Positions 17,138 through 32,236 of a stretch of 45,835 bases of DNA are shown one piece after another. The first letter of the stretch is position 1, and every line of letters begins with the position of its first letter. Both the position numbers and the translations under genes were made by a program. The notes beneath the pieces were generated by a model. That model made no database searches and was not told where the DNA came from. It saw nothing but the letters and a program-made list of their open reading frames with translations. Origin of the DNA: an uncultured Pelagibacteraceae bacterium. GTDB taxonomy: Bacteria > Pseudomonadota > Alphaproteobacteria > Pelagibacterales > Pelagibacteraceae. The stretch spans positions 1-45,835 of the forward strand of contig CACJMW010000007.1 of the NCBI GenBank assembly GCA_902594655.1. Direction: 5' to 3'.

Positions 17138-18078
17138 TAGTTTAATTTTTTTGGAATTTTAAAAACTATATCTTCTTTTATAATTTCAACTTCCTCAATT
17201 TCAACTTCATATTTTTCTTTAAGATTGCTTATGAAATTACTAACTAAAATTTCAGGGGCAGATGCTCCCGATGAGATACCAATAGTGTTGCACTTATTAA
17301 TTTGTTCATATGGAGTAGTGCTTTCTGAATGTATTAAAGACGAATTTTTACATCCTGAGTTTTTAGCTACTTCAACTAGCCTTACAGAATTTGATGAATT
17401 TCTACTGCCTATAACAAAAAACATTTCACACAACTTAGCAATATTTTTAACTGCACTTTGCCTGTTTGTTGTTGCATAACAAATATCTTCTTTCTTTGGT
17501 TCTTTGATTTTAGGAAACTTAGTTCTTAATTTGTTTATAATGTCTTTTGTATCATCTACAGATAAAGTTGTTTGTGTAACATAAGCTATATTCTTTTTTG
17601 TAGTTTTATAGTTTTCAACATCCTCAATTGATTCAATTAAGTCTATAGATCCATTTGGTAGCTGACCTATAGTTCCTACAACCTCTGGATGGTTTTTATG
17701 ACCAATTAATAAAATATGACTTCCTGCTTTATGTAAATTTTCAGCTTCTCGATGAACTTTTGATACCAAAGGGCAAGTTGCATCAACATAAGTCATCTTC
17801 AAATCTTCTGCTTCTGTTGGAACAGATTTTGGAACACCATGTGCAGAAAATATAACTGGTCTAGTTTTATCTTTTATCTCACTTAGTTCCTCAACAAAAA
17901 TAGCTCCAATTTTTTTTAGACTTTCTACAACATGTTTATTATGAACAATTTCGTGTCTTACATAAACAGGTGCACCAAATTTATCTATACTTTTTTTTAC
18001 TATTTCAATTGCTCTATCCACACCAGCACAAAAACCTCTGGGTGCAGCTAGCAAAATTTTTATTTTATGCTTATTCAT
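17137..18078 (-). CDS. ispH: 4-hydroxy-3-methylbut-2-enyl diphosphate reductase
   Basis: The last enzyme of the MEP pathway, making IPP and DMAPP with an iron-sulfur cluster. Cluster cysteines are in APRGFCAGVDRAIEI (about residue 15), DATCPLVSKVHREA (about 100) and ICYATTNRQSAV (about 200). Substrate histidines are in HEIVHNKHVV and HGVPKS. I chose the ATG at 18078 rather than an in-frame TTG at 18087; this gives 313 residues and overlaps the blh end by eight bases. Coupling to blh means that precursor supply and retinal formation are probably on one message. Confidence 0.95.
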   Translation of the reverse strand: MNKHKIKILLAAPRGFCAGVDRAIEIVKKSIDKFGAPVYVRHEIVHNKHVVESLKKIGAIFVEELSEIKDKTRPVIFSAHGVPKSVPTEAEDLKMTYVDATCPLVSKVHREAENLHKAGSHILLIGHKNHPEVVGTIGQLPNGSIDLIESIEDVENYKTTKKNIAYVTQTTLSVDDTKDIINKLRTKFPKIKEPKKEDICYATTNRQSAVKNIAKLCEMFFVIGSRNSSNSVRLVEVAKNSGCKNSSLIHSESTTPYEQINKCNTIGISSGASAPEILVSNFISNLKEKYEVEIEEVEIIKEDIVFKIPKKLN

Positions 18079-18964
18079 TATTCTCAATTAAATATTCCAG
18101 CAATATATGCGGAAAGGTCAAAGAGGCCAAACCAATAAATATTACTTTTGATATAGCACTATCCAAAAAATAATTATTCTTTAAAAATAATAGTGATATT
18201 AAGAACAAAATAGCAGTCAAAATTGTTAATGGCATTGCTTTTATTATAAATTCTTTAAATCCCTTTATAAAATTATTTTTATTAAGTTCATTTGATAACT
18301 TAAAAGAGTGTCTAATTGAATGTAAAAAACAAAAGTAAATCGTAAATGCTAGCACTGGAGTTAAAAAATAGTTTAGTAGTAAGATTGACATAAAATCCAT
18401 AATTAAAATTGATTTGATTTCTATTTGTTTATTCGACGAAATTAAAATATTTGCAAAAAAACTAACAATTATAAATAGACATAAAAACTGATCAGAAATC
18501 AAATAGCTCTGCGAAATGTTAAAGTTTAAGTTATTAAAAATCTCTAAAGTTTCAGTTTTGTGAAATAATAAAGGAGCCGTAATTACTAAAGAACCTTTTA
18601 AAAAATAAATCAAATTATGACCCGGCTTATAACTAATGAATTCAGAATCTTCCTTTCCAAAATGAAAAGATGCAACAATTAAAAAAACTAGTAATAAGAT
18701 TTTAGGAAACATAAGCCATAAAAAAATTATACTTAATCCTGTAAAAATATATAAAATATAAAATGTAATAGTCGACTTATAATTAAGTAATTTTATCAGT
18801 TTTTTTCCTTTTGTGTGATCCAAAGCTCCATGTGATATTCCAAGACTTAATATTAAGAATAAAGAAAAAATAAGTAAGTTGTTGTCTCTTAAATACTCAA
18901 AGGCAGATAAAAAAATACACGAATTAAAAAATATTAATGAGTGATAAAAATTTATTTTATTCAT
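18071..18964 (-). CDS. blh: Brp/Blh family beta-carotene 15,15'-dioxygenase
   Basis: This membrane enzyme cleaves beta-carotene into two retinal molecules. The 297 residues have about seven hydrophobic segments and the conserved iron-binding histidines: GISHGALDHTKG (about 42-53), VASFHFGKEDSEF (about 97-109), CFLHSIRHSFKLSNEL (about 210-225) and FPHILLEYL (about 283-291). The order crtI-crtB-crtY-blh upstream makes the assignment firm. Its natural user would be proteorhodopsin, which is not in this window. It follows crtY after five bases and its end overlaps ispH. Confidence 0.93.
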   Translation of the reverse strand: MNKINFYHSLIFFNSCIFLSAFEYLRDNNLLIFSLFLILSLGISHGALDHTKGKKLIKLLNYKSTITFYILYIFTGLSIIFLWLMFPKILLLVFLIVASFHFGKEDSEFISYKPGHNLIYFLKGSLVITAPLLFHKTETLEIFNNLNFNISQSYLISDQFLCLFIIVSFFANILISSNKQIEIKSILIMDFMSILLLNYFLTPVLAFTIYFCFLHSIRHSFKLSNELNKNNFIKGFKEFIIKAMPLTILTAILFLISLLFLKNNYFLDSAISKVIFIGLASLTFPHILLEYLIENNE

Positions 18965-18969
18965 ATGAA

Positions 18970-20037
18970 TTAAAAAATATTTTTAATAAAAATCCATTTT
19001 GGCATTTTTAAAATTATTCCTATATCTTCAAAAATATTACTTTTATTTGATAAAAATTTTATAATCGTTTTAGATGGAGCTTTAAACATATTTAAGAATA
19101 TTTCTGGCATTTTATCTGGGTATTTTTTTAAAACATTTAAAAATACATTATCAAGAAATTCATATTTTTTTCCAATATGATAAGGCTTTGAACTTTGAAT
19201 TTTTTCAATATTATTTACTATGTATTTACTATGATCTTGTATATTTAGAAAAGTATACCCTGTGCTCAGACGAGTCATGCCTCCCGCAGATCCAATATTA
19301 ATTTTATTTTTCTCAATTTGATAAATAGGGTAAAATAAAGGAATAGCACCTTCCTCTTGATAATTAATTTTATAATTTTTTATTTTAAGAGTTTCTTCAA
19401 TATATTTTTCCAATTGAGCATCATAGTCTTTTAATGACTTGTTATCCATTTTTGATAACCAGGTAGTTTCAATCAAAGCTTTATTTTTTGTAAATGGTAA
19501 AGTATAAAAAAAATGTACATTGTCTCTTTGATCACAATCAAAATCCATCAAGTTAAATATTTTATCGTCAAAAATATTTTTAGACGTTTCAATTTCTATT
19601 CCCTTAAAATGTTGCCAAATTTTTCCTTCATAATTTTCCTTAGCAGGAATGCTATTGAATATAATAGAATTATTTAAATTTAATTGATTTATATTTTTAA
19701 AAAATTCAATATTTTTGTTTTGTCTAATTTTATTTAAAATTTTATTATAAAATAATCCACTATCTATTGTTTGGTATGGATAATCTCTATTTAAAACTTT
19801 ATGTGATCCTGATTTAGAATTTATAGAAAAATTATTCCAAGTTTTGATTATACAATCATCAAAGTTATGGTTATTAACTTTCCAAAATGACCATGTCTTA
19901 TCTCTTTTATATTCATCTCTAATTTCAACAATCGCTAATTTTTTATTTTTAATTTTATTATTAATATCCAATTCATAGGCCAATGACAGACCCGCACAAC
20001 CACCACCTAAAATTACATAATCAAATTCTTTCATCAA
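18970..20037 (-). CDS. crtY: Lycopene beta-cyclase
   Basis: This flavoprotein cyclises both ends of lycopene to beta-carotene. The 355-residue protein begins with a dinucleotide fold DYVILGGGCAGLSLAYEL (about 5-22), has YKRDKTWSFW (about 43-52) typical of CrtY, YQTIDSGLFYNKIL (about 86-99), and the substrate-side signature GSAGGMTRLSTGYTFLNIQ (about 252-270). Its start lies 17 bases inside the end of crtB in another frame, a long overlap that suggests strong coupling. It feeds beta-carotene to Blh. Confidence 0.93.
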   Translation of the reverse strand: MMKEFDYVILGGGCAGLSLAYELDINNKIKNKKLAIVEIRDEYKRDKTWSFWKVNNHNFDDCIIKTWNNFSINSKSGSHKVLNRDYPYQTIDSGLFYNKILNKIRQNKNIEFFKNINQLNLNNSIIFNSIPAKENYEGKIWQHFKGIEIETSKNIFDDKIFNLMDFDCDQRDNVHFFYTLPFTKNKALIETTWLSKMDNKSLKDYDAQLEKYIEETLKIKNYKINYQEEGAIPLFYPIYQIEKNKINIGSAGGMTRLSTGYTFLNIQDHSKYIVNNIEKIQSSKPYHIGKKYEFLDNVFLNVLKKYPDKMPEIFLNMFKAPSKTIIKFLSNKSNIFEDIGIILKMPKWIFIKNIF

Positions 20038-20911
20038 GATTTACATCCTCGCTAATAATCTCATGCTCTCTTTTTCTTTGATGAGGTTCTGTTTTTTTTA
20101 AAAAAAGAAATATTAAATCAAATAAAGATAAAAATGTTTGGAATAATTTACCAAAATTATTTACATATATTTTTCCAGATTTTTCATAATTTTCCATATT
20201 TCCTTTGCTCAAAATCTTTCTTCCAATCTGCCTATAAACTCTCCTAGCTACAATTATTGCAAACCTATATTTTAATGGAATTTTTTTAATAGAACTAAAT
20301 GAACTTTCATAAAACATGTCAGCTAGTTTCAAAGTTGCTTCGATATTTTCAAAGTCTGATTTGATATACTGCCTTTTCATTTTTTTATCTTCAATTACAT
20401 CTCTGGCTATATTTGTTAGTTGCATTGCAATCCCTAAATCAATAGCTCCTTTCAAACATCTTGTATCATTTACGTTTAATATTTTTGCCATCATTAGACC
20501 AACAGTTCCAGCAACTCTATATGAATAGACCAGTAAATCTTTTACTGATCTTAAATGAACTTTTGTTTTTAAATCAGAACCAACTCCTTCAATAAGATCA
20601 TCTAAAATTATTTTTTTGATCCTGTTATTATCTGCGATGACAATCATTTCATTAATAATCGTACCATGTTCATATTGATCTATTAATTTACTATTTTCAT
20701 CATTTTGTTCATATGCCTTATTAAAAAAGTGTCGGATTTTATTAAATCTTTCAGTTCTTAATTCTAGACTTTCTTTTTCATCAACCAAATCATCTAATAC
20801 TCTACAAAACGCATAAAGTTTTGAACAGTCATGATAAATATTTTTAGGTAAAAAAAAACCTGCCCAATTAAATGATTTGGCAAAAAGAGCTAGATAGTTT
20901 TTTTCTTTCAT
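20021..20911 (-). CDS. crtB: Phytoene synthase
   Basis: This enzyme condenses two GGPP into phytoene. The 296 residues carry both Asp-rich motifs for Mg-diphosphate binding: YAFCRVLDDLVDE (about 30-42) and NIARDVIEDKKMKRQYI (about 167-183). The segment YSYRVAGTVGLMM (about 129-141) is also diagnostic. A hydrophobic, Phe/Leu-rich tail near residues 258-272 may help membrane attachment. The ATG overlaps the crtI stop by one base. The GGPP synthase (crtE) that provides substrate is not in the window, so it must be elsewhere or be shared with another prenyl diphosphate synthase. Confidence 0.95.
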   Translation of the reverse strand: MKEKNYLALFAKSFNWAGFFLPKNIYHDCSKLYAFCRVLDDLVDEKESLELRTERFNKIRHFFNKAYEQNDENSKLIDQYEHGTIINEMIVIADNNRIKKIILDDLIEGVGSDLKTKVHLRSVKDLLVYSYRVAGTVGLMMAKILNVNDTRCLKGAIDLGIAMQLTNIARDVIEDKKMKRQYIKSDFENIEATLKLADMFYESSFSSIKKIPLKYRFAIIVARRVYRQIGRKILSKGNMENYEKSGKIYVNNFGKLFQTFLSLFDLIFLFLKKTEPHQRKREHEIISEDVNLDERI

Positions 20912-22371
20912 TAAATTATTTTATCCAAAACTTTTGCAGATGAAAGAACACCGGGTACTCCTGCGCCTGGATGAGTACCTGCGCCCACAAAGTAAAGACC
21001 TTCATAAACTTCTGATTTGTTATGAAATCTAAAGTAAGCAGATTGAGTAAATTTTGGTTGAATTGAAAATCCCGAACCATATTTAGTGTTAAGATCTTTT
21101 TCAAAATAATCAGGGGTTAAATAAAAATCTTCAACAATATTTTTTCTTAGTTCAGGCATTAGATCATTCTCCATCTTATCGATAACTAAATTTTTCATTT
21201 TTTCTCCCTCAATCTCCCAATTGATATTAGATTGATTGTTGGGCACTGGAACAAGAACATAAAAACAATCATGACCATCGGGAGCCATTGATTTGTCAGT
21301 CGCAGATGGTCTATGCAGGTAGTAACTAATATCATTATTTAATTTTTTATTTTCAAAAATATCTTCTAGATGTTCTTTATATTTATTTCCAAACTTAATT
21401 GTATGGTGCTCAACATCATCATAAACTTTCTTTGTTCCAAAATAATAGACAAATAATCCCATTGAATATTCCATTCTATTTTTTTTCCAATTAAATAAAA
21501 AAGAATTATTTTTATCTTTATTTAACAAGCTTTCATAAACTGCAGGAGGATCTGCATTGCATATAATATAATTTGCACTTATATTTTTTTTGTTATCTAA
21601 TTCAACACCTGTAATTTTTTTGTTATCTAAAATTATCTTTTTAACCTCATGACCTTTGATAACTTCAATTCCAACTTCATTCATTAATTTTTCTAGACCA
21701 TTTATAATGTTTCCTGTCCCACCCATTGAATAATGTATTCCCCATTTTTTCTCCAAATATAATATTAATCCATAAATTGATGTTGTTGTGAAAGGATTTC
21801 CACCAACCAATAGTGGATGCATGCTTAACATTCTTCTTAATTTTTCATTTTTTATAAACGAAGAAACTAAAGAATAAACTGATTTATAACTTTTTAATTT
21901 TAATAATGCTGGCAATTGTTGCATCATTACTAAAGGTTTATTAAATGGTATATCAGCAAGTTCAGTAAAACCTTTGTCAAAAATTTTTTTTGTAAATTTA
22001 ACTAATTTTGAATATCCTTCAACATCATTACTATCAATTTTTCCAATTTGACTTTTCATTTCAGTTTCATTTCCTGAATAATTAAATCTTGATTTATCTT
22101 CAAACACAAATTGATACCAAGTTTTAAGAGGCTGTAGTTTTATGTAATCATTTGTATCTTTTTTAAACAACTCAAATAATTCATTTATTAGATATGGAGC
22201 TGTTATAACTGTTGGCCCGCCATCGTAAGTAAAACCATTTCTTTTAAATACTCTTGCTCTGCCGCCAAGGTCTTTGTGTTTTTCAATTAATATAACATTA
22301 TGGCCTTTTGCTTTTAGACGAAGTGCAGCTGCAATACCACCAAACCCAGAGCCTATTATTATTGAATTCAT
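20911..22371 (-). CDS. crtI: Phytoene desaturase
   Basis: This FAD enzyme turns phytoene into lycopene. It is 486 residues, the usual CrtI length. The N-terminal FAD fold is IIGSGFGGIAAALRLKAKG with VILIEKHKDLGGRA (about 4-42), followed by FDGGPTVIT-type YDGGPTVITAPYLI. The C-terminal carotenoid signature is YFVGAGTHPGAGVPGVLSS (about 458-476). It heads the carotenoid genes and lies 32 bases downstream of the atpF stop on the same strand, separated by an AT-rich hairpin. A promoter of its own could not be picked out, so it may be read from the ATP synthase operon or start within it. Confidence 0.95.
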   Translation of the reverse strand: MNSIIIGSGFGGIAAALRLKAKGHNVILIEKHKDLGGRARVFKRNGFTYDGGPTVITAPYLINELFELFKKDTNDYIKLQPLKTWYQFVFEDKSRFNYSGNETEMKSQIGKIDSNDVEGYSKLVKFTKKIFDKGFTELADIPFNKPLVMMQQLPALLKLKSYKSVYSLVSSFIKNEKLRRMLSMHPLLVGGNPFTTTSIYGLILYLEKKWGIHYSMGGTGNIINGLEKLMNEVGIEVIKGHEVKKIILDNKKITGVELDNKKNISANYIICNADPPAVYESLLNKDKNNSFLFNWKKNRMEYSMGLFVYYFGTKKVYDDVEHHTIKFGNKYKEHLEDIFENKKLNNDISYYLHRPSATDKSMAPDGHDCFYVLVPVPNNQSNINWEIEGEKMKNLVIDKMENDLMPELRKNIVEDFYLTPDYFEKDLNTKYGSGFSIQPKFTQSAYFRFHNKSEVYEGLYFVGAGTHPGAGVPGVLSSAKVLDKII

Positions 22372-29378: not shown

Positions 29379-30512
29379 ATGAAAAATATAGCGATTTTAG
29401 GAGGAGGAATTTCTGGGCTATTCCTGGCTAATCTTTTAGAAAAGTATAGTTCTTTCTCTTATAAAATTTTTGAAAAAAAAAATTCATTAGATTTAACAGA
29501 TGGTTATGGAATACAACTTTCTGTTAATAGTGTAAATTTATTAAATAAATTAGGTTTTGAAAAAATAAATTCAAACGATGTTTATTTTCCAAAAAACGTA
29601 AATTTTTTTGATATAAGTACTCTAAAAAAAATATGTGATATTAACCTATCACAATTTAACTTTGATAATAATAGGTATACCACATTAAAAAGATCTAAAT
29701 TAATTAAATTTTTTTTAAGCAATATACCTAAAGAAAAAATAATTTTTGATTCAGATCTTATAGATATTAAAGAACGTGAGAAGTTAACATTATCTTTTAG
29801 AGATAAAAATACAGAGGAATTCGATTATTTAGTAGCAGCAGATGGAGTTTATTCAAAAACTAAAGAAATATTATTTAAAAAAGAAGGTTTACCAAAATAT
29901 TTTAATTCAATTGCATTAAGAGGGCATATTCATAATTTTAAAAACGCAGATATTTCGTTATATCTAGGTCCAAATTTTCATGTTGTAATTTATCCTATTA
30001 ATCAAAATAATGAGTTTAATTTTATATCTATTATAAGAAAACAATTAAGTGAATCTGAAATTTCAAACAGAAATTTATTTAATGACAAAATATTCACACA
30101 TAATTTGATTAAACAAATTTCTGATAAATCAAATTTAAATTTAACTGAGATTGTTAAAGAAATTAAATGCTTTCCAATTTTTGTAAGCAAAAAAATTCAT
30201 ATACCCCAATCTAAAAATATTTTTTTAACTGGTGACGCATTTTTTTCATTTCCACCTTCATTTGCACAAGGAGCATCTCAATCAATCGAGGCTGCCTATG
30301 AACTGTTTACAGATCTTACAAATAATTCTACAAGCTATTACAAAACAAGAATTTCTAAGACTAAACAGATAAATTCTAGATCCTCAATTAATCACTTTGC
30401 TTTCCATTTATCACATCCATTAAATATTTTTTTTAGAAACATTGTTTTGAAATATATTTCTAAAAATGAATCTTTTTTAGAGAATTACTTAGGTAAAATT
30501 TATAATAATTAG
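29379..30512 (+). CDS. FAD-dependent monooxygenase (UbiH / PHBH-type fold)
   Basis: A 377-residue flavin hydroxylase-like protein. It starts with IAILGGGISGLFLANLLEK (about 4-22), has the DG motif LVAADGVYSKTKEILFK (about 151-167), and the FAD-phosphate motif FLTGDAFFSFPPSFAQGAS (about 281-299), followed by QSIEAAYEL. These are the three motifs of the p-hydroxybenzoate hydroxylase family. Substrate unknown: ubiquinone ring hydroxylation, or an aromatic or carotenoid-related compound, are possible. It follows mutY by one base and its last four bases overlap ccrM. Confidence 0.82.
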   Translation: MKNIAILGGGISGLFLANLLEKYSSFSYKIFEKKNSLDLTDGYGIQLSVNSVNLLNKLGFEKINSNDVYFPKNVNFFDISTLKKICDINLSQFNFDNNRYTTLKRSKLIKFFLSNIPKEKIIFDSDLIDIKEREKLTLSFRDKNTEEFDYLVAADGVYSKTKEILFKKEGLPKYFNSIALRGHIHNFKNADISLYLGPNFHVVIYPINQNNEFNFISIIRKQLSESEISNRNLFNDKIFTHNLIKQISDKSNLNLTEIVKEIKCFPIFVSKKIHIPQSKNIFLTGDAFFSFPPSFAQGASQSIEAAYELFTDLTNNSTSYYKTRISKTKQINSRSSINHFAFHLSHPLNIFFRNIVLKYISKNESFLENYLGKIYNN

Positions 30513-31582
30513 GTTACAGGTCTTAAGCGCTGCCTAAGTTCATCAATAGGCTTTAAACTGTTTCCAACCTGATAGTGCCAATAAGTCCAACCATTACAGC
30601 TTTCGGCTCCTAAAATTTTAGCTGCAACTTTGTGAATAGATCCTTCATTTTTTTTATGCTTGATGCTTCCATCAACCATAACTTTTGCAAAAAACTTTTT
30701 TTTTTGATCATAAATTTCTGTTCCAGGTTTAATTACTCCTAGTTCTATTAGCGATCCAAAAGGTATTCTAGGTTTTGACTTATTATTTTGGACTGTATCT
30801 AAATATTCATCTTTAATTATATTAGTATTCTTTACTCTTCTGTTTGCTGCTTCAAGATATTTTTTTTCTTTTTCTATTCCAAAATAAGATCGTCCTAATT
30901 TTTTTGAAACTACAGCAGTTGTTCCTGAGCCTAAAAAAGGATCTAAAATAAAATCATTTTTATTTGAAGATGCTAATAATATTCTATGCAGCAATGATTC
31001 TGGTTTTTGAGTTGAATGAACTTTTGCTCCATTTTCTTTTAATCTTTCTTTTCCATTACATATAGGCAGACTCCATGTAGATCTCATTTGTAAATCATCA
31101 TTGAAAGCCTTCATTGATTGATAGTTGAATGTGTATTTTGATTTTTTACTTTTTGATGCCCAAATTAATGTTTCATGAGCATTAGTAAATCTTGTACCTC
31201 TGAAGTTTGGCATTGGATTATTTTTATTCCAAATTACATCATTTAATATCCAAAAACCAAGATCTTGTATTAACTTACCGACTCTAAAAATGTTGTGATA
31301 GCTGCCTATGACCCAAATAGATCCATCCTTTTTTAATACTCTTTTAGATTCTTTTAACCATTCGTAAGTAAAATTGTCATAGGAATTGAAGCTTTCAAAT
31401 TTATCCCATTTATCATTAACTGCATTAACTTTAGAGCTATCTGGTCTGAGTAAACTATTTTGTAATTGTAAATAATATGGTGGATCTGCAAAAATTAGAT
31501 CAAATGTTTCGTCAGGAATTTTTTTTAATTCGTCAAGGCTGTCGCCATTAATTAGTTTGTTATGTAAATTTTTAACATCCAT
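30509..31582 (-). CDS. ccrM: Cell-cycle regulated adenine-N6 DNA methyltransferase CcrM (GANTC)
   Basis: A 357-residue beta-class N6-adenine methyltransferase. Motif IV is FADPPYYLQLQNSL (about 31-44), the AdoMet motif I is DFILDPFLGSGTTAV (about 211-225). The region IWVIGSYHNIFRVG and the ending FGSLIELGVIKPG ... NGWTYWHYQ are those of the CcrM C-terminal domain, which distinguishes it from ordinary restriction methyltransferases. CcrM methylates GANTC after replication and controls cell-cycle genes. No restriction enzyme is near. Four GANTC sites lie in its own promoter. The ATG at 31582 has a predicted leader of about seven bases. Confidence 0.95.
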   Translation of the reverse strand: MDVKNLHNKLINGDSLDELKKIPDETFDLIFADPPYYLQLQNSLLRPDSSKVNAVNDKWDKFESFNSYDNFTYEWLKESKRVLKKDGSIWVIGSYHNIFRVGKLIQDLGFWILNDVIWNKNNPMPNFRGTRFTNAHETLIWASKSKKSKYTFNYQSMKAFNDDLQMRSTWSLPICNGKERLKENGAKVHSTQKPESLLHRILLASSNKNDFILDPFLGSGTTAVVSKKLGRSYFGIEKEKKYLEAANRRVKNTNIIKDEYLDTVQNNKSKPRIPFGSLIELGVIKPGTEIYDQKKKFFAKVMVDGSIKHKKNEGSIHKVAAKILGAESCNGWTYWHYQVGNSLKPIDELRQRLRPVT

Positions 31583-31595
31583 TTTTTAAAAAGTA

Positions 31596-31624
31596 ATTAG
31601 ACTCTAGCGCAGATTCCACGTCAA
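31596..31624 (-). promoter_or_regulatory. Sigma70-type promoter of ccrM
   Basis: On the minus strand, TTGACG (31624-31619), exactly 17 bases, then TCTAAT (31601-31596). Each hexamer matches the consensus at five of six positions. A GANTC site (31612-31616) lies within the spacer and another (31600-31604) overlaps the first two bases of the -10. Predicted start near 31589 leaves about seven bases to the ATG. It is the best promoter seen in the window. Confidence 0.75.
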
Positions 31625-31676
31625 CCAGAGATTGAAAAAAAAGGACTCGACTTGTTATATGATTTAATCTGGACTC
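31600..31676. promoter_or_regulatory. Cluster of four GANTC methylation sites upstream of ccrM
   Basis: GANTC occurs at 31600-31604 (GACTC), 31612-31616 (GATTC), 31644-31648 (GACTC) and 31672-31676 (GACTC). The last is in the end of rnhB, the others in the 81-bp gap. With about 30% G+C, roughly 0.2 sites would be expected in 77 bases, so four is a marked excess and suggests autoregulation by methylation. Confidence 0.85.
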
Positions 31677-32236
31677 AACATATTGTGTATTGGACCAAAG
31701 GTTTTTCGATGGTGCTGGGTTATTCCAAATTTCTTTATGGCTTTTAAATGTTCTTTAGTTCCGTATCCGGCATTTTTATCCCAAGCATATTTTTTATATT
31801 TTTTTGTCATTTTTGTAATAAGACGGTCTCTTGCAACCTTAGCAATTATGGATGCAGCTGAAATTTCAGATACTTTCTGATCACCTCTAATAATATACTT
31901 TAGCTTGTAGCCATTTACATTTGGTAATTTATTGCCATCAATCAAGGTTAATGATGGTTTTTGTTTAAGTTTTTTTATAGCTCTTTTCATAGCTAATAAA
32001 CTTGCATTTAGAATATTTAACTTTTCAATTTCTTTCAAAGAAGACGAGCTTACGCTCCAAATAGAATTTTTTTTAATATATTTTTCGAGGCAAAATCGTT
32101 TTACTTTCGAAAGCTGTTTAGAATCTTTAATTTTTTTTTTATCGATATTTTTTTTGAATATTACAGCTGCAGCAAAAACTGGCCCGATCAAACTTCCTCT
32201 TCCTGCCTCATCTACTCCAGCTATAATTTTTTTCAT
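31664..32236 (-). CDS. rnhB: Ribonuclease HII
   Basis: This nuclease removes single ribonucleotides and RNA primers from DNA. The 190-residue protein has GVDEAGRGSLIGPVFAAAV (about 6-24) with the catalytic Asp-Glu pair, the third Asp in LTLIDGNKLP (about 96-105), and AASIIAKVARDRLITKM (about 126-142) with the last acidic site. HHRKTFGPI at the end is typical. It overlaps the uracil-DNA glycosylase stop by one base. Its final codons contain a GANTC site belonging to the ccrM promoter cluster. Confidence 0.96.
   Translation of the reverse strand: MKKIIAGVDEAGRGSLIGPVFAAAVIFKKNIDKKKIKDSKQLSKVKRFCLEKYIKKNSIWSVSSSSLKEIEKLNILNASLLAMKRAIKKLKQKPSLTLIDGNKLPNVNGYKLKYIIRGDQKVSEISAASIIAKVARDRLITKMTKKYKKYAWDKNAGYGTKEHLKAIKKFGITQHHRKTFGPIHNMLSPD

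Follow-up and report, generated by a model that had tools for sequence, protein, structure and literature searches.

Two conserved GANTC sites and an inverted repeat in the predicted ccrM promoter of a SAR11 bacterium

In Caulobacter, the gene for the GANTC methyltransferase CcrM is driven by CtrA. Self-methylating promoters of restriction-modification systems, such as those of M.CfrBI and LlaJI, carry the target of the methyltransferase in the promoter of its own gene. The SAR11 ccrM locus described here shares that target-in-own-promoter arrangement with M.CfrBI and LlaJI, but its mark is N6-adenine at GANTC and no nuclease partner was recognised nearby (six neighbours scanned, the rest of the window by eye). 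It differs from the CtrA-driven ccrM of Caulobacter in that CtrA was not seen in five complete SAR11 relatives, and resembles it in that the Caulobacter promoter is also thought to respond to methylation, which most probably acts directly on ccrM transcription (PMC3973325).

Among Caulobacter start sites, those with a GANTC between -10 and -35 form one timed class, and GANTC lies within 50 bp at only 31% of the GcrA-bound timed start sites (PMC4287350). At methylated promoters, GcrA, whose target is sigma2, promotes the formation of open complexes (PMC7403470). The SAR11 locus is like the GcrA/CcrM promoters of Caulobacter and Brevundimonas in its core-promoter GANTC, its GcrA and its CcrM writer (PMC3667746, PMC7987155, PMC4287350), but it has two phased sites, fixed offsets from TTGAC and, as the putatively regulated gene, that of the methyltransferase itself. 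Across orders, CcrM is predicted to belong to the core targets of GcrA, with this control lost in Caulobacterales (PMC7987155), and a methylation-read ccrM is an already published prediction. PMC7987155 also reports few likely GcrA targets in P. ubique, having scored extended motifs regardless of promoter location, while the account in PMC2877005 counts GANTC upstream of cell-cycle genes and deems control not derivable. In the open-access literature, to which our search was confined, we found no SAR11- or Pelagibacter-specific study of the ccrM promoter or of GcrA; within the same scope, what is new is the fixed geometry, its breadth, its near-invariance in the genus and the SAR11 inverted repeat.

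The ccrM locus and its enzyme

The window, a 45,835-nucleotide stretch from an uncultured Pelagibacteraceae bacterium, contains ccrM and the gene upstream of it on the same strand (Table 1). A row of genes at 18071-22371 is, we presume from inspection by eye, related to a retinal-forming carotenoid cleavage enzyme, lycopene cyclase, phytoene synthase and phytoene desaturase.

Table 1 Features of the ccrM locus in window coordinates. Motifs are read on the minus strand unless stated; counts are loci of the genus.
Feature	Position	Strand	Remarks
ccrM, GANTC adenine methyltransferase	30509..31582	-	N6_N4_Mtase and RAMA domains
rnhB, ribonuclease HII	31664..32236	-	PF01351, E 1.8e-39
rnhB-ccrM intergenic gap	31663 to 31583	-	81 bp
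Predicted -35, TTGACG	31624-31619	-	TTGAC invariant, 70/70
Predicted -10, TCTAAT	31601-31596	-	TCTA(A/C)T with 17-bp spacer, 70/70
GANTC across the -10 (GAGTC-TAAT)	31600..31604	-	GACTC on plus strand; kept in 69/70
GANTC in the -35/-10 spacer (GAATC)	31612..31616	-	GATTC on plus strand; 12 bp from the -10 site
Third GANTC, upstream of the -35	31644..31648	-	GACTC on plus strand; counterpart in 40/70, not strongly conserved
Fourth GANTC, in last rnhB codons	31672..31676	-	GACTC on plus strand; counterpart in 33/70
Inverted repeat TTCAATC-TCT-GGTTGAC (TTCAATCTCTGGTTGAC), candidate operator	31620..31636	-	Right arm within the -35

The encoded protein matches Pfam PF01555 and PF18755 above cut-off, the methylase plus RAMA-type C-terminal domain by which the CcrM family is recognised, and its best solved relative is CcrM 6pbd (E 1.6e-138 over residues 9-354). 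The NCBIfam CcrM model NF050803 gives 568 bits (E 5.9e-171), below its 830-bit equivalog cut-off; as this model is named DnaMtaseCcrMCaul and we read it as Caulobacter-centred, orthology is taken from the Pfam and 6pbd evidence. At window positions 31472-31474, adjoining the catalytic motif, the protein reads DPPYY where DPPYN stands in the seven relatives aligned with it, a difference that may be a sequencing error. A separate observation concerns genome G129 of genus g6 (79% complete, 4% contamination), which holds two full-length CcrM genes with differing promoter layouts on contigs 5 and 21 (L126), either through contamination or as a true second copy.

Methylation of GANTC in vivo has been reported for other Pelagibacter (PMC9516812, PMC12570018). 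Long reads show the motif methylated with an ori-ter gradient, and in the cultured strain NP1, 3477 of 3482 sites were fully methylated (PMC9516812).

Promoter layout and conservation within the genus

The original prediction placed four GANTC motifs within 77 bases upstream of ccrM, one in the spacer of a TTGACG-N17-TCTAAT promoter and another over the first bases of its -10. All are present as claimed, the four sites spanning exactly 77 bases and the first two bases of TCTAAT being the end of GAGTC (31604-31600). The fourth site lies outside the 81-bp gap, unlike the other three. The ccrM ATG stands 13 bases past TCTAAT; if the promoter is used, as we infer, the transcript would be nearly leaderless, with a predicted leader of about 7 bases. 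A generic promoter scan did not return this promoter, since it needs A at the second -10 position, where ccrM has C; an imperfect -10 with C at -11 would fit a promoter that requires an activator.

GANTC is depleted in the window (68 observed against 117.7 expected from shuffles). Across 21 stretches of this genome, window included, 572 sites occur in 413,101 bases (1.38 per kb; about 46% of the genome), with a mild intergenic excess by simple gene calls (1.62 versus 1.37 per kb). At this density a stretch of 77 bp should hold 0.107 sites, and by Poisson statistics at least four would turn up with a probability of 5e-6 per such stretch. The ccrM upstream is the densest cluster in the sample and its sole instance of four GANTC in 77 bp, while runs of three begin at seven places, one of them inside the ccrM cluster. 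The remaining intergenic clusters in the sample were judged by eye to be tRNA T-loops (L228), except for one genuine cluster ahead of umuDC, the only other three-site intergenic gap: on contig 8, three GANTC lie within 28 bp (L227, 993-1020) before a UmuD-like (PF00717) and a UmuC-like (by eye) gene pair. A LexA-type box, GTTC-N7-GTTC (motif from PMC7987155), sits closer to the gene than that cluster does; GANTC at SOS genes is remarked on in PMC7987155.

CcrM was found in 76 of the 101 genomes of the genus, and 70 ccrM upstreams were used (of six matches left out, two were full-length but not fetched, two partial, one a fragment and one a distant paralogue). TTGAC, a 17-bp spacer and TCTA(A/C)T occur in every one of the 70. 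Of the core GANTC sites, 69 loci keep the one over the -10 and 66 the one in the spacer; both stand together in 65 loci, the -10 site alone in four and the spacer site alone in one. The genus therefore carries one mark of a GcrA-CcrM methylation-responsive promoter, a conserved GANTC inside the -35/-10 of a sigma70-type promoter. Counterparts of the outer sites at 31644 and 31672 are found in only 40 and 33 of the 70 loci, and for the latter, conservation is no evidence of regulation because the site lies in rnhB coding context. The expectation that the sites would be conserved in relatives thus holds for the core two, which are the real feature among the four, and is not supported for the outer pair.

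Parsimony changes were counted on a tree built from 435 nt of ccrM, with the mean of 9.4 changes at ccrM third codon positions as yardstick. The -10-overlapping GANTC shows one change over its five columns. The dyad arms of the inverted repeat, TTGAC and GAGTCTAAT show 0-2 changes per column, and one G beside the right arm shows 5. Between the spacer GANTC and the -10 site the distance is either 12 or 11 bp, giving two registers under a constant -35/-10 spacing; changes at G, A, N, T and C number 0, 0, 3, 0 and 0 in the 37-locus register and zero in all five columns of the other (29 loci). A cluster that arose by chance or was inherited without function could account for the poor conservation of two of the four sites, but for the core pair it is refuted by the shuffle, control-motif and parsimony tests, and as an account of the whole we give it almost no credence.

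A subtler alternative is that the core sites are constrained only as sequence, by an unusual sigma70 promoter or a GcrA contact, with methylation incidental. All 70 loci have G as the N of the -10 site, so that conservation there may partly reflect promoter sequence. At the spacer site, by contrast, GA and TC are fixed while N takes all four bases, and from clade to clade the site shifts by one base without losing GANTC. Such a shift under a fixed -35/-10 spacing is as expected from two independent constraints, and we regard the purely sequence-based explanation as very improbable.

Distribution across SAR11 and the Alphaproteobacteria

When 39 genomes of other SAR11 genera were searched, 36 had a CcrM match (one weak), and 30 loci from 12 genera were read. 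Of these loci, 28 combine TTGAC with a -10-like hexamer across a 17-bp spacer, and 23 have at least one core GANTC: two in nine loci, one in 14 (12 found by pattern plus two g5 loci that the hexamer pattern missed) and none in seven. Those without a core GANTC are g9 and three of the four g12 loci, and ccrM is kept there. The pair is tightly kept in the genus of the window and loosely beyond, and the seven loci that have ccrM without it indicate that it is not indispensable. In this genome the strict pattern TTGACN{13,16}GANTCTA occurs only at ccrM. Across 17 genomes it gave 29 matches, 11 at ccrM and 18 elsewhere, against 44 control matches, and so revealed no wider SAR11 regulon sharing the two-element architecture.

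For the class, 192 genomes were drawn, of which 138 had CcrM at E <= 1e-100; 130 upstreams were obtained and eight were not. Removal of five without the start hallmark needed by the script, three from SAR11 and one stretch cut by a contig end left 121 non-SAR11 upstreams from 85 families. Of the 121, 64 (48 families) have two GANTC at a distance of 9-12 bp, and 45 (34 of the 85 families) have TTGAC-N1..5-GANTC-N4..7-GANTC, as compared with a mean of 1.66 and maximum of 5 pairs, and no TTGAC plus pair, in 100 dinucleotide-shuffled sets. Seven control pentamers gave 0-3 for the pair and 0-1 for TTGAC plus pair, and the shorter 190-nt coding stretches gave zero for both. The second GANTC starts 19 bases after the T of TTGAC in 38 of the 45 loci and 20 bases after it in five; in the genus of the window the distance is 20. 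The commonest pair spacing is 11 bp (24/45), one helical turn, and in Altererythrobacter (L298), Erythrobacter (L317, L319) and Qipengyuania (L309) the order is TTGAC, GANTC, six bases, GANTC. The remaining 57 of the 121 lack a 9-12 bp pair, and the two-site design is thus common, not universal, among Alphaproteobacteria and is not SAR11-specific. This runs against the proposal that a streamlined SAR11-type cell has specially kept the feedback: the arrangement is widespread in the class and is often reduced or lost in other SAR11 genera.

A pattern search of 40 genomes, mostly picked for their ccrM pair so that the ccrM matches are not independent, gave 83 matches against 19 for the control. 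Outside SAR11, TTGAC-GANTC-GANTC stood just before ftsB-like genes in 10 of the 16 loci read (L452, L458, L461, L462, L468, L471 and L473-L476; the four checked against Pfam are DivIC, PF04977). The promoter of ftsB may possibly be a second class-wide methylation-read promoter outside SAR11.

The inverted repeat, TTCAA-N7-TTGA(A/C), is a second conserved element that the original prediction had missed. Its strict form occurs in 68 of the 70 loci of the genus; in the 30 loci of other SAR11 genera (L120-L149), 18 carry the strict form, nine a relaxed form with TTCTA as left half, and three neither. It lies over the -35 in g11, g13 and one g6 locus, as in the genus of the window, over the -10 in g2, g4 and g10, and at the start region in g8, the other g6 locus and three of the four g3 loci, as well as, relaxed, in g7, g9 and g12. 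The movement among -35, -10 and +1 would fit a repressor operator better than an activator site. The repeat shares its N7 spacing with the CtrA box (TTAA-N7-TTAA), a candidate that was set aside: no CtrA was seen in five complete relatives and the halves are inverted.

In this genome the looser pattern TTCAAYNNNNNRTTGAM occurs at ccrM and at one other place. A search of 17 genomes located it at 50 distinct places, of which 12 are ccrM loci and the other 38, lying elsewhere, are at about the control level (78 matches on both strands against 48 for the control). The tighter TCAAYCNNNGRTTGA lies at ccrM in all nine genomes of the genus that were searched, two of which hold a single further copy, and is absent from the four genomes searched from other genera; its places were confirmed at ccrM also in four genomes without a prior protein search.

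Could the repeat be the main control, a dimeric repressor setting ccrM with GANTC serving mainly for mutual exclusion of methylation and repressor? Its incidence in both sets of SAR11 loci speaks for this, as do its shifting position, expected of a polymerase-blocking operator, and the persistence of the relaxed form in the g9 and g12 loci without a core GANTC; in g2, g4 and g10, moreover, the arms contain or abut GATTC or GAATC. In the genus of the window, on the other hand, the repeat is free of core GANTC overlap, and outside SAR11 its strict form was found in only 1 of the 121 ccrM upstreams although the GANTC pair occurs there, which argues that the pair has a reason of its own. We judge this explanation improbable.

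Readers of the mark and regulation of ccrM

As the original prediction had asked, a gcrA gene was looked for, and GcrA is encoded in this genome (profile match to PF07750, E 5.0e-31), one of 172 among the 197 family genomes searched to have it. The two solved domains of Caulobacter GcrA, DNA-binding (5yiu) and sigma-binding (5yix), each align with a GcrA from another SAR11 genus. On the minus strand the core sites read AGAGTCT and GGAATCT, neither of which fits the extended motif YGAKTCK reported for Caulobacter GcrA; as the account of B. subvibrioides in PMC7987155 describes no YGAKTCK preference, the mismatch is not decisive.

The genome of the window is 71% complete. Read by eye, the Trans_reg_C proteins of five complete SAR11 relatives (G012, G082, G105, G109, G140) included no CtrA, and the four from G012 scored at most 133.5 of the 350 bits needed on the CtrA model. 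Pelagibacter is described as lacking CtrA in PMC7987155 and PMC2877005 as well. A Trans_reg_C protein of about 190 residues without an obvious receiver was observed in this genome and two complete relatives (L174, L186, L187 and similar), with counterparts of 221-244 residues in g5, g9 and g12.

In S. meliloti, ntrX mutants have raised ccrM transcripts, and NtrX operators are given as CAAN2-5TTG in S. meliloti and Brucella and as GCAN9TGC in R. sphaeroides (PMC9223101). The SAR11 repeat, CAA-N7-TTG, can be written CA-N9-TG and so has the R. sphaeroides spacing, but its N7 falls outside the N2-5 of the CAA-N2..5-TTG form. As the protein of the SAR11 repeat, NtrX is a lead only.

Taken with these data, the 29-bp core of the ccrM promoter is probably, by a little better than an even chance, a GcrA-sigma70 methylation-sensing promoter through which CcrM supports itself under a SAR11 repressor ceiling. 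With two CcrM sites, the N6-methyladenines would be separated by roughly one turn of the helix, in a place where they could be read by GcrA held on sigma domain 2. GcrA-RNA polymerase would fire the promoter on methylated DNA, whether fully or half methylated, and CcrM would thereby support its own synthesis; replication through the locus would half-methylate the promoter and change its output. In SAR11, a putative dimeric repressor on the TTCAA-N7-TTGAA repeat would set the ceiling of expression. The sign of the loop is the weakest step: we favour activation on methylated DNA, given that this genome has GcrA and the promoter has the spacer site. A positive loop alone would risk permanent switch-off, which counts against this reading.

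Direct inhibition at the -10 is a real rival, if a rather unlikely one. It would act as negative feedback without GcrA: methylation at -14 and -12 would weaken sigma70 recognition of the -10, and ccrM would be on only while half-methylated or unmethylated after fork passage, then shut itself off. A GANTC overlapping the -10 in 69/70 loci is consistent with this, as is the most probably direct effect of methylation on ccrM transcription in Caulobacter (PMC3973325); in five complete genomes of the genus, ccrM lies 272-280 kb from dnaA and, if dnaA marks the origin, would be half-methylated at a fixed point of replication. Negative feedback leaves the spacer site and the helical-turn spacing unexplained, however, and the nearly complete methylation in NP1 (PMC9516812) would allow little unmethylated time.

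With GcrA present and the core sites conserved, the parallel that had been drawn with Caulobacter stands in that part, while the model that fits is GcrA without CtrA and not a CtrA-driven ccrM; the earlier interpretation is, overall, partly supported. More tentatively still than the activation reading, it is conceivable that in SAR11, with CtrA lost, ccrM is on a self-contained timer made of two phased CcrM sites read by GcrA-sigma70 and a dedicated repressor that has its operator at ccrM and almost nowhere else. Such a promoter would count fork passages without any other cell-cycle regulator, and the phased sites would be a class-wide ancestral design of which Caulobacter is the derived exception.

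SAR11 bacteria are among the most abundant cells on Earth and are without many known cell-cycle regulators, and how DNA methylation is timed in them is the question addressed here. That question can be put to the test in vitro with a promoter this small, in which two methylation sites hardly vary and an inverted repeat is conserved. As a signature of methylation-read promoters, the class-wide geometry is sharper than GANTC counts, and it singled out ftsB outside SAR11. For the SAR11 cell itself, the layout suggests a self-reading timer tied to the copying of DNA.
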